Part shown: piece after piece, positions 12,906-26,068 of the stretch
Numbering within the stretch: position 1 is the stretch's first letter
Layout: each line of letters starts with the position of its first letter
Source: Pseudomonadota bacterium
Lineage (GTDB): Bacteria; Pseudomonadota; Gammaproteobacteria; Burkholderiales; SHXO01
DNA: 42,602 nucleotides
NCBI GenBank assembly: GCA_023430065.1
Contig: JAEZCG010000200.1
Span: 1-42,602, forward strand
Direction of reading: 5' to 3'
Notes under the pieces: model-generated
Databases searched by the model: none
What the model was told of the DNA's origin: nothing
The model's input: only the letters and a program-made list of their open reading frames with translations
Program-made: the position numbers and the translations under genes

Positions 12906-14831
12906 ATGCCTACCGATCATGCCGCTCCCGCGGCAAGCCCTGCCGAACCGGCCTCGCAGCCGGCAACGCTTGCCGCGACCGTGTCCGCCCTGAACGAGCT
13001 CGCGCTCGTCTTACGCGGTGCGGGCGAGACCGACGCCGCGCGTTCCACCTGGGCGGCCGCATTGCGCCTCGCCCCCCACCATGCCGTCCTGAATGCCAAC
13101 CTGGGGGCCCTGTTGCAGGACCTCGGTCATCGCGATGCAGCCCTGCACCACTACAAACTCGCCCGGGGCGCTGCGCCCGGCTGGGCGGAAGTGTGGAACA
13201 ACAGCGGCATTGTCCTGCGCCAGTTGGGCCGGTCCGATCAGGCGCGCGACGCGTTCGAGCAGGCGTTGCGCCTGGCGCCTGCCGACATTGCCGCACGCTA
13301 CAACCTCGGCAACGCGCTGCTCGATGCCGGCGCAAAAATGGAGGCAGCCGAGCAGTTCCGCCGTGTGCTGGCACATGCTCCGGCGCATGCCGAAGCGCGC
13401 TATGGACTGGCCACCTGTCTCACCGATCCGGTCGCGGCGATTCCACACTACGAACAGGCCCTCGCGGTACGGCGCGACTTCCCGGAAGCACTGGTCGGAC
13501 TCGCCTGTGCTCGCCTGCGCGCCTGCGACTGGCGCGAGATCGACGCGCTGCGCGAGCAGGTGGAAGCGCTGGTACGCGAGCGTCCCGATGCCCCCGTGGC
13601 ACCGTTTTCCTTCCTGCAGCTGAGCGCGGACCCCGTTCTGCAGCGGCAGTGCGCGCACAACTGGGCCACGCACCGGGTGCGCCGGCTGGCGGTGCTACCC
13701 GAGCGAGCGCCGCGGACGCACGGCTCCCGCCTTCGCGTCGGCTATCTGTCCGGCGATTTCCGGGATCACGCCGTGGGGCACCTGATCTGCGATCTGTTCG
13801 GTGCTCACGATCGCCGGGTGGTCGAAGCGTTTGCCTACAGCAGCGGACCCGGTGACGGCGGCAGGGTGGGGCAGCGGGTGAGGGAGGGTGCCGAGCACTT
13901 CGTGGACGTCTCCGCGCTGGACGATGCCGCCCTCGCGGCGCACATCCGAGACGATGGCATCGACATTCTGGTCGACTTGAGCGGGTATACCGAATTCGGC
14001 CGAAGTGCAGTGTTGAGTGCGCGACCGGCTCCCGTGCAGATGAATTATCTCGGCTACCCGGGCAGCATGGGTTCTTGCTTCGTCGACTACCTGCTCGGGG
14101 ATGCCCATCTGGTACCCCCACCGCTGCACCCCCTCTATGACGAGCGTGTGCTCGACGTGGGCGCCTGCTACCAGCCGAGCCCCGATTGGGGGACACGGCT
14201 GTGGGCCGACCCACCCGACCGCTCCCGGCATGGCCTGCCTGCAGACGGCTTCGTGTTCGCCTGCTTCAACCACCCCTACAAGATCCGCCCCGCCACGTTT
14301 GCGGCCTGGATGCGCATCCTGCGTGCGGTGCCAGGCAGTGTGCTGTGGCTTCCCGCAAGCCACGCCGTCGCGTGCGACACCCTGCGCCGGAACGCGCGTC
14401 AATCGGGCATCGACGATCGGCGTCTGGTCTTCGCGCCCATGGTCGCATTCGAGGAGCACTCGGATCGTTTGCCGGCTGCCGATCTGTTCCTGGACACGCA
14501 TCCGTACTCGGCCGGCGCGACCGCGGGGCAGACGCTGGCGGCTGGCGTTCCCCTGCTGACCCTGGTCGGCAACTGCTACGTGTCGCGCATGGCGGGCAGC
14601 CTGCTGCATGCGCTGGGGCTGGGCGAACTGGTGGTCTGCGACCTGGACGCCTATGTGTCCCAGGCGGTCCGATTCGCCCAGGATTCGTCCATGCGTGCGC
14701 AGCTGCGCGCGCGCCTCAGAGATGCCATTCCCATCTTCTTCCGCCCCGGGCGGGTGGCCCGTTCCCTGGAGGACGCGTATCGCACCGCATGGGACGCGCA
14801 TCTCGCCGGCCGATCCGAGAGTCGGCCATGA
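12906..14831 (+). CDS. TPR-containing GT41 (OGT/SPINDLY-like) glycosyltransferase
   Basis: First island gene, 641 residues. TPR repeats fill about residues 25-210 (for example AWAALRLAP-type and YNLGNALLDAGAKMEAAEQF units), then comes a GT41 catalytic region (about 275-625). Hallmarks are GYLSGDFRDHAVGH (279-292, with H288 and H292), VDLSGYTEFGRS, YLGYPGSMG, FNHPYKIRPATFAAWMRIL and the donor-binding stretch DTHPYSAGATAGQTLAAGVP (from D530). Family members transfer a sugar, GlcNAc or fucose in known cases, from a nucleotide to Ser/Thr of proteins in the cytoplasm. Placement upstream of flagellin suggests flagellin as acceptor. The ATG at 12906 has only a weak ribosome site. Its stop overlaps the next start (ATGA). 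Confidence 0.9.
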   Translation: MPTDHAAPAASPAEPASQPATLAATVSALNELALVLRGAGETDAARSTWAAALRLAPHHAVLNANLGALLQDLGHRDAALHHYKLARGAAPGWAEVWNNSGIVLRQLGRSDQARDAFEQALRLAPADIAARYNLGNALLDAGAKMEAAEQFRRVLAHAPAHAEARYGLATCLTDPVAAIPHYEQALAVRRDFPEALVGLACARLRACDWREIDALREQVEALVRERPDAPVAPFSFLQLSADPVLQRQCAHNWATHRVRRLAVLPERAPRTHGSRLRVGYLSGDFRDHAVGHLICDLFGAHDRRVVEAFAYSSGPGDGGRVGQRVREGAEHFVDVSALDDAALAAHIRDDGIDILVDLSGYTEFGRSAVLSARPAPVQMNYLGYPGSMGSCFVDYLLGDAHLVPPPLHPLYDERVLDVGACYQPSPDWGTRLWADPPDRSRHGLPADGFVFACFNHPYKIRPATFAAWMRILRAVPGSVLWLPASHAVACDTLRRNARQSGIDDRRLVFAPMVAFEEHSDRLPAADLFLDTHPYSAGATAGQTLAAGVPLLTLVGNCYVSRMAGSLLHALGLGELVVCDLDAYVSQAVRFAQDSSMRAQLRARLRDAIPIFFRPGRVARSLEDAYRTAWDAHLAGRSESRP

Positions 14832-24954: not shown

Positions 24955-26068
24955 GCTGCCCCCGGGTCCGACCGTTCCATTCCTGGACCTGGCCCGACTG
25001 CATGCGCGCGTCCGCACCGATCTGGATGGAGCCTATCGACGCGTGATGAACGCCGGTCAGTGGATCCTGGGTAGCGAAGTAGAGGCCTTCGAATCGGAGT
25101 TCGCGGCGTACTGCGGAGCACGCCACTGTATCGGCGTCGGCAATGGACTCGACGCCCTTCACTCGATCCTGCGCGGATACGAGATCGCAGCGGGCGATGA
25201 AGTGATCGTACCCGCCGCCACGTTCGTAGCCACCTGGCTGGCCGTCACGCATGCCGGTGCGCGCCCGGTACCGGTCGACGTGGATCCCGATACGCACAGC
25301 ATCGACCCCACCGGCATCGAGGCTGCGATCGGACCGCGAACGCGTGCCATCGTGGCGGTGCATCTGTATGGCAGGGTCGCGGACATGGTGCGCATCCGCG
25401 CCATCGCGCAGCGCCACCGTCTGGTGGTCATCGAAGATGCCGCTCAGGCTCATGGCGCCGAGCAAGGGGGGCGTCGCAGCGGGACGCTGGGATTGGCTGC
25501 CGCGTTCAGCTTCTACCCGAGCAAGAACCTTGGCGCGCTCGGCGACGCCGGCGCAGTGGTCACCGACGACGATGCGCTCGCCGACAAGATACGTATGCTG
25601 CGCAATTACGGAGGTATCCGGAAGTACGAGCACCACGCGCTCGGACTGAACACGCGCCTGGACGAACTGCAGGCAGCCTTCCTGCGGGCAAAACTCAAGT
25701 ACCTGGACGCATGGAACGAGAACCGTCGCAAGATCGCCGAGCACTACCTTGCCACCATTCGCAATCCGGCGGTGACCCTCCCTGCCTCCGCCGGGGTACG
25801 CGAGCATGCGTGGCATCTGTTCGTCGTGCGCACCCGAGTTCGCGACGCACTGCGCGAGCATCTTGCGCAGCATGGTATCGCCACTCAGATCCACTATCCG
25901 CGGCCACCGCACCTGCTCGAGGCGTACGCGGAACATGGCTTCGGAGAAGGCGCCTTCCCCACCGCGGAATACCTCGCGAGCGAGGTGCTCAGCCTGCCCA
26001 TGGACCCGTTGATGACGCGTGAACAGATGCAGTGGTGTGCCCGGCAAGTGAACGAATTCGTCCCTTGA
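24890..26068 (+). CDS. DegT/DnrJ/EryC1/StrS-type sugar aminotransferase, FdtB/QdtB-like
   Basis: A PLP-dependent nucleotide-sugar aminotransferase of up to 392 residues. It should put an amino group at C3 of the dTDP-3-keto-6-deoxyhexose made by the neighbouring ketoisomerase. Visible are PFLDLARLHARV near the N terminus, GVGNGLDALHSILRG, VPAATFVATWLA, EDAAQAHGA and the PLP lysine K212 in FYPSKNLGALGDAGAV, then RNYGGIRKYEH and LNTRLDELQAAFLRAKL. The start is uncertain: GTG at 24890 gives the longest reading, while GTG at 24911 or an even shorter start before PFLDLARL is possible, and none has a good ribosome site. It is the last island gene; its stop is 230 bases before fliC. Confidence 0.9.
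   Translation: MTTTAFSVKSAQQASPTSSRPELPPGPTVPFLDLARLHARVRTDLDGAYRRVMNAGQWILGSEVEAFESEFAAYCGARHCIGVGNGLDALHSILRGYEIAAGDEVIVPAATFVATWLAVTHAGARPVPVDVDPDTHSIDPTGIEAAIGPRTRAIVAVHLYGRVADMVRIRAIAQRHRLVVIEDAAQAHGAEQGGRRSGTLGLAAAFSFYPSKNLGALGDAGAVVTDDDALADKIRMLRNYGGIRKYEHHALGLNTRLDELQAAFLRAKLKYLDAWNENRRKIAEHYLATIRNPAVTLPASAGVREHAWHLFVVRTRVRDALREHLAQHGIATQIHYPRPPHLLEAYAEHGFGEGAFPTAEYLASEVLSLPMDPLMTREQMQWCARQVNEFVP

Follow-up and report, generated by a model that had tools for sequence, protein, structure and literature searches.

The 42,602-nucleotide stretch analysed here, the contig JAEZCG010000200.1 of a Burkholderiales bacterium (assembly GCA_023430065.1) and hereafter the window, carries an island of eleven genes between pdf, encoding peptide deformylase, and the flagellin gene fliC. 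We consider it likely that this is a flagellin glycosylation island producing a modified 3-amino sugar, a reading drawn from sequence comparison of the insertion site, of flagellin itself and of the island's predicted enzymes. The island genes, named g1 to g11, and the features that border them are as follows, with domain scores in bits (TPR, tetratricopeptide repeat; GT, glycosyltransferase family; SAM, S-adenosylmethionine; 2OG, 2-oxoglutarate).

12123..12803, plus strand: pdf, peptide deformylase (PF01327), left border of the variable site; adjoins fliC in island-free relatives
12906..14831, plus strand: g1, TPR and GT41 (OGT/SPINDLY-like) glycosyltransferase, 641 aa; Pfam GT41 247.5 bits, cut-off 25
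14828..17356, plus strand: g2, TPR and GT41 glycosyltransferase, 842 aa, many TPRs; Pfam GT41 53.9 bits, cut-off 25
17353..19188, plus strand: g3, TPR and GT61 glycosyltransferase, 611 aa; Pfam Glyco_transf_61 88.8 bits, cut-off 27
19196..19948, plus strand: g4, putative SAM-dependent methyltransferase, 250 aa; Methyltransf_23 25.1 bits, below the cut-off of 27
19950..20630, plus strand: g5, NeuD/PglD-like hexapeptide acyltransferase, 226 aa; TIGR03570 152.2 bits, below the cut-off of 160.8
20627..21547, plus strand: g6, predicted beta-propeller of GH130-like fold, 306 aa; from a structure model
21549..22535, plus strand: g7, FemABX-type double-GNAT protein, predicted aminoacyl-tRNA-dependent amino-sugar aminoacyltransferase, 328 aa; Acetyltransf_6
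22548..23366, plus strand: g8, PhyH Fe(II)/2OG dioxygenase, 272 aa; PF05721 95.3 bits, cut-off 22
23363..24517, plus strand: g9, FkbM methyltransferase, 384 aa; PF05050 49.4 bits, cut-off 22.7; TIGR01444 62 bits, cut-off 37.7
24514..24954, plus strand: g10, FdtA/QdtA-type dTDP-4-keto-6-deoxyglucose 3,4-ketoisomerase, 146 aa; PF05523 190.2 bits, cut-off 23
24890..26068, plus strand: g11, FdtB/QdtB-type C3 aminotransferase (DegT family), 392 aa; PF01041 388 bits
26197..26223, plus strand: sigma-28 (FliA)-like fliC promoter, outside the island; 13 of 16 consensus bases
26299..27786, plus strand: fliC, flagellin, presumed acceptor, 495 aa; Flagellin_N/C domains

The eleven open reading frames (12906–26068) each contain a single terminal stop, and from g1 to g11 they are separated by −4, −4, +7, +1, −4, +1, +12, −4, −4 and −65 bases, the overlap of 65 between g10 and g11 being counted from the most upstream GTG, such that the true overlap may be shorter. 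The end of g11 lies 230 bases from the fliC start at 26299. The tight chain reported in the initial annotation is thereby confirmed, with all frames open; its description as a cluster of unusual composition applies to the set of genes and not to the bases, as the GC content of the island (66.3%) is near that of the upstream region (67.7%) and of fliC–fliK (64.4%). Recently acquired foreign DNA, as judged by composition, is ruled out, both GC and GC at third codon positions resembling those of the flanks.

The position of the island is a conserved feature of its relatives, which are designated here by G-numbers for genomes and L-numbers for fetched stretches. The nearest family belongs to the same order as the Burkholderiales metagenome-assembled genome (MAG) G004 and is represented by four genomes, whose LigA identity to the window is 82% in G256, 82% over the larger part in G343, and 64–66% in G301 and G381. 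The best LigA match among 61 genomes of the order to which the Lysobacter MAG G009 belongs reaches 61%, and by LigA we therefore place the window in the Burkholderiales. A g6 gene was found in none of the four genomes of the nearest family. In G256 and G381 the gene order is ligA-galU-orf-pdf followed by fliC-flaG-fliD-fliS-fliK-glnD, as in the flanks of the window, with pdf and fliC only 315 and 348 bases apart, respectively; no FliC match was found in G343, which is in small contigs, or in G301, and the empty site is that of G256 and G381. The pdf and FliD positions were compared by eye among the matches listed for 250 genomes, junctions being taken where the two lie no more than 25 kb apart on one contig. 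By this lower-bound count, the pdf–fliC junction spans 230–983 bases in at least seven relatives and 8.4–18.2 kb in at least eleven; these gaps are measured between tblastn match ends and may include small genes, as in the 983 bases of G232. Filled junctions were typed by Pfam for G250 and for parts of G335, G374 and G514, and the remainder by tblastn only. By tblastn, the G277 and G230 junctions hold GT41 and g6 together with a different DegT gene and one that is NeuD-like. The filling in G250 (L116) is of the nonulosonic-acid type: two of its proteins belong to the NeuB family, one is a DegT aminotransferase, and another, 1580 residues long, is a GT2/methyltransferase protein. In G514, the region from galU to fliC holds g4-g5-g6-g7-g10-g11, the set that we term the core module (g4–g7 plus g10–g11), after which comes a GT2/RgpF protein of 1532 residues. 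G246 (L103) carries the flagellar block in inverted orientation, and G280 has a differing gene order. Because the junction is empty in some relatives and differently filled in others, it is, as read from gene order and sequence matches, a conserved site for swappable glycan islands.

Several further observations concern fliC-near loci. Proteins of 1510–1580 residues with GT2 domains occur in three such islands (L087:12840-17438, L088:11930-16462 and L116:12867-17609), two of the three with RgpF or methyltransferase domains, and the giant gene immediately precedes fliC in L087 and L116. A tandem pair of g6-like genes lies near fliC in a Burkholderiales genome (L103:9528-11448), and such pairs exist in several genomes. 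In G309 (L112 1-16401), glnD comes directly after pdf, without intervening flagellar genes, a FliD match is about 280 kb away, and the g4–g11 core sits on another contig (L086); to judge by this genome, the flagellar genes may themselves form a mobile block.

A comparison with two genomes that share the frame of the island but not its middle genes links the island to flagellin. Both G335 and G374 have the order pdf-GT41-GT41-GT61-cassette-FdtA-FdtB-fliC, with identities to the window of 45/42% and 44/40% for the two GT41 proteins, 32/31% for GT61, 64/64% for FdtA and 59/58% for FdtB (G335/G374). In G374 the cassette consists of a single hexapeptide transferase, closest among solved structures to a WxcM-like protein and to QdtC, which are known as 3-amino-sugar N-acetyltransferases. 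With this transferase between GT61 and FdtA, g4–g9 therefore occupy the usual place of 3-amine acetylation or modification. A MobA-like nucleotidyltransferase gene stands ahead of the first GT41 gene of G374. The G335 cassette includes, among others, a methyltransferase gene, two that are formyltransferase-like and one that is adenylylsulfate-kinase-like (L114:11116-11781); the latter two types suggest another, perhaps formylated, sugar.

Flagellin varies with this frame. Over FliC residues 151–404, identity to the window is 87% in G335 and 82% in G374 but 33–57% in the other 13 of the 15 genomes compared, and just 38% in the nearest relative, G256; the comparison leaves aside G230 (FliC split between pieces) and G246, G312, G329, G436 and G460 (interrupted tblastn matches), and the start codon of FliC is untrimmed in G247, G441 and G514, without effect on the central domain. 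FliD (G256 53%, G335 55%, G374 56%) and LigA (82%, 68% and 67%) do not co-vary in this way. The FliC central part is 32% Ser and Thr (81 residues), and 59 of these positions are Ser or Thr in all three flagellins. That the flagellin central domain tracks the island frame supports, by inference from sequence, a flagellin glycosylation island. Together with the conserved pdf–fliC site, this co-variation much strengthens the link to flagellin proposed in the initial annotation, while the glycan and the reactions given below remain predictions.

The predicted enzymes of the island are consistent with such a role. The nearest PDB entries to g10 are 5tpu, 7n67 and 2pa7, and those to g11 are QdtB (3frk) and then 2oga, which we take to be DesV. 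The 3,4-ketoisomerase and the C3 aminotransferase of the FdtAB/QdtAB pathway are thus both present by sequence, in support of the 3-amino-sugar pathway that had been proposed from an FdtA/FdtB-like pair; together they would be expected to yield a dTDP-3-amino-3,6-dideoxyhexose. Two positions of g10 that we assume to discriminate between Fuc3N and Qui3N point in different directions: the Arg of its DxRG motif is FdtA-like, but the residue after the conserved Trp is Arg and not His. The nucleotidyltransferase at 10049–10927 is GalU. All three glycosyltransferases announced earlier have TPRs and pass their Pfam cut-offs, g1 and g2 as GT41 and g3 as GT61. With N-terminal TPRs and a GT41 domain, g1 and g2 are of the FlmG/OGT type; the best PDB relatives of g1 are OGT, XcOGT and SPINDLY, and its Lys459, within FNxxYK, presumably corresponds to Lys842 of OGT.

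We propose that an island inserted at the swappable pdf–fliC site acts in the cytoplasm. RmlA and RmlB encoded elsewhere in the genome would supply dTDP-4-keto-6-deoxyglucose, which g10 would isomerise to the 3-keto sugar and g11 would aminate at C3. An amino acid carried by aminoacyl-tRNA could then be placed on the sugar amine by g7, and the alpha-amine so introduced may in turn be acylated by g5, while g4, g8 and g9 would methylate or hydroxylate the cap or the sugar; candidate roles of g6 are trimming, transfer or binding of the sugar. The TPRs of g1 and g2 would bind flagellin and a GT41 domain would place the first sugar on Ser or Thr of FliC before export, with g3 and the other GT41 enzyme extending the glycan.

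The step assigned to g7 is the most interesting part of this scheme. The protein has the double-GNAT FemABX fold with a sequence relation to known members, the nearest being streptothricin aminoacyl-tRNA-dependent enzymes (17–18% identity to the streptothricin type over the fold) and FemA/FemX. Lys301 of its F-K motif is invariant (25/25) and aligns with the FK of Sbb17 and Sba18; it may be the counterpart of Lys305, the catalytic Lys of FemXWv (PMC12945691). Among 37 g6 loci, FdtA is present in 24 of the 25 with g7 and in none of the 12 without it. The FemAB likeness noted earlier therefore holds (Acetyltransf_6, FemABX fold), and the donor is probably aminoacyl-tRNA and not CoA. Because of this, the "N-acylated" sugar of the initial annotation may well be N-aminoacylated; for aminoacylation of the 3-amino sugar from tRNA by g7 itself, we regard the chances as evenly balanced. 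A wider proposal, in which g7 is tRNA-dependent on a flagellin sugar, g7-g5-g6-FdtA-FdtB form a portable N-aminoacyl 3-amino-sugar module serving flagella and O-antigens, and g6 is a GH130-fold enzyme with a new function, is plausible but a little short of even. A smaller though still substantial chance falls to g7 as a CoA- or ACP-dependent N-acyltransferase in the same island frame, yielding a conventional N-acylated (acetyl or hydroxybutyryl) 3-amino sugar as in known flagellin glycans; proteins of the FemABX fold could use other acyl donors, while the nearest relatives and the Phe-Lys motif favour tRNA. The streptothricin-type enzymes (BD-12 Orf11, PMC12945691; Sbb17 and Sba18, from PDB titles) resemble g7 in fold, in the Phe-Lys motif and, if its inferred acceptor is correct, in acting on an amino sugar, but they serve an antibiotic pathway and not a glycoprotein, as far as that source describes them. 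In the open-licence PMC literature we found no flagellin island described as including a tRNA-dependent enzyme. The portable module offers a testable assignment to a family of 2605 proteins (E ≤ 1e-20, among 7993 scored); the 120 listed are named at source almost entirely as hypothetical protein or GNAT. Some of these carry PF02388, which we take to be FemAB.

A third possibility is that the island makes an O-antigen or capsule sugar, its place next to fliC being a matter of chance or of convenient transcription. We judge this unlikely, though the distribution of the core module speaks for it. That distribution also weighs against our flagellin reading, as do several other points gathered here. 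Two partly overlapping genome sets contain g6 in 38 of 399 and 25 of 398 genomes, from which 18 chosen stretches were fetched. A FliC or FliD match occurs in 4 of 37 loci of the first scan (L005, L020, L037 and, weakly, L022), in none of the 20 stretches in the order of the Lysobacter MAG G009, and in 2 of the 8 g7-bearing stretches among those 18; these stretches span about 10 kb or less per side, and flagellin genes further off would be unseen. In L002, the core is flanked on one side by genes for a Wzm/Wzt-kind ABC transporter and a sugar nucleotidyltransferase, and on the other by GT2, Glycos_transf_4 and GT9 glycosyltransferase genes, an O-antigen-type setting. Neither RmlA nor RmlB was seen in the window, beyond which they were not sought. 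The co-variation comes from two genomes, in which g1–g3 are 31–45% identical to their counterparts, yet FliC is 86–88% identical, a disparity that gives no support to the idea that a donor like G335 simply passed on the island and fliC together. Finally, the highest 19-residue hydropathy means of g3 (1.62) and g4 (1.87, at residue 62 in an apparent SAM-binding fold) do not strictly exclude membrane contact, whereas those of the other nine proteins stay below 1.6, the usual membrane-segment value.

Against a surface polysaccharide stand the TPR-GT41 enzymes, the repeated filling of the site beside fliC by other islands and the tracking of the island frame by the FliC central domain. Domain scans also found no flippase, exporter (ABC type included) or polymerase domain in any of the eleven proteins, as expected for cytoplasmic TPR-glycosyltransferase systems such as FlmG (PMC7591256). 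Strict flagellin specificity of the core is ruled out by its mostly non-flagellin loci and by L002. Because most copies lie away from flagellin genes and one is in an O-antigen-type cluster, the core is, on the loci compared, a portable sugar module, and only the whole assembly in the window is flagellin-linked. The refuting case named in the initial annotation, a cluster found mostly in non-flagellated genomes or beside O-antigen genes, thus applies in part, to the sub-module g4–g7 plus g10–g11 only. Away from the pdf site, L005 comes closest to the window: it combines fliD, two fliC genes, a GT41 gene and the six-gene core, after which g9 and g8 follow on the opposite strand. In 19 of the 20 stretches in the order of the Lysobacter MAG (L066–L084), FdtA, PglD, the g6 propeller, FemAB and FdtB stand in fixed order, and in L067 this module is near genes for a GT2 protein, an amidohydrolase, an ECF sigma factor and a subtilase.

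The least probable alternative, an intact but silent or relict island without effect on flagellin, draws on the failure to find a sigma-70-type promoter in 12500–28500 and on a sigma-54-like match at 12858 that is weak and within chance (one of 16 in the window versus 19.8 expected), and we give it very little credence, as all eleven frames are open and tightly coupled and the g7 and g8 motifs are intact. The sigma-28-like site is the sole match with at most three mismatches in the window (0.01 expected), and a similar sequence lies 5′ of fliC in G256 within an otherwise diverged spacer. As fliC has its own sigma-28-like site, island and fliC are probably under separate promoters.

Precedents for many of the gene types are known. 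The flagellin islands of Enterobacteriaceae also contain GT41, FkbM, an FdtB-type aminotransferase and a NeuD acetyltransferase and are highly strain-variable, but their glycosyltransferase families are reported to exclude one another, unlike GT41 and GT61 in the window; the main text of that study does not mention FemAB, PhyH, phytanoyl or beta-propeller (PMC4875605). Geobacillus flagellin islands have FdtA and FdtB too, and in strain PSS1 a formyltransferase replaces the FdtC acetylase by the same cassette-swap logic; this is a Gram-positive, and no g4–g7 module is mentioned in the accessible portion (PMC5109656). In type B flagellin of C. difficile, the amine of 3-amino-3,6-dideoxygalactose (Fuc3N) is acylated by a taurinyl-Ala-Gly peptide, and the reported genes are an acyltransferase, a D-alanine ligase, an alanine dehydrogenase and FdtB, with no FdtA homologue or FemABX described in the sections available (PMC5207245). 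Caulobacter FlmG resembles g1 and g2 in architecture, its TPR binding flagellin and its C-terminal glycosyltransferase acting in the cytoplasm, but it is a single transferase that uses pseudaminic acid (PMC7591256, in part). B. cenocepacia, also of the Burkholderiales, has an amino-dideoxy flagellin sugar, there a 4-amino sugar with a 3-hydroxybutanoyl group (PMC12355684, in part). Among the matches listed in the open-licence PMC literature, none was found to describe the pdf–fliC junction as a place where islands insert. If the proposal for g7 is correct, charged tRNA would be a donor for glycoprotein modification, so that substrates of translation would enter the surface chemistry of the flagellum. 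The amino-acid-capped Fuc3N on type B flagellin of C. difficile would then have a counterpart in a Gram-negative bacterium, formed in a different way. The junction, empty or variously filled, permits a comparison of flagellin sequence with glycan type across the Burkholderiales.

The remaining genes fit their earlier descriptions to differing degrees. Only g9 of the two reported methyltransferases exceeds its family cut-offs, both of them curated for FkbM; g4, present in 22 of the 37 g6 loci, falls short of its Pfam cut-off. The likeness of g5 to PglD holds, with perosamine N-acetyltransferase as nearest PDB relative and PglD also matched, but curated membership of the NeuD/PglD/VioB family (TIGR03570) is rejected by score, leaving it NeuD-like only. 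Although g6 has no Pfam match, it is confidently modelled as a propeller of glycosidase-like fold similar to GH130, in agreement with the beta-propeller proposed before. Membership of GH130 is rejected (NF052550, 37.8 bits against a cut-off of 450), while a g6 profile reaches two GH130 phosphorylases at E ~1e-18 in shifted repeats, and Asp82 and Asp292 are invariant. The assignment of g8 as a PhyH dioxygenase is upheld by its score and by an intact motif, H129xD131 and H202, with HxD/E and H kept in all six aligned sequences; these residues are presumably the metal ligands. The N-terminal domain of g9, which precedes the FkbM domain, is weakly similar to NeuD and Rex (25–27 bits, far below the cut-offs).

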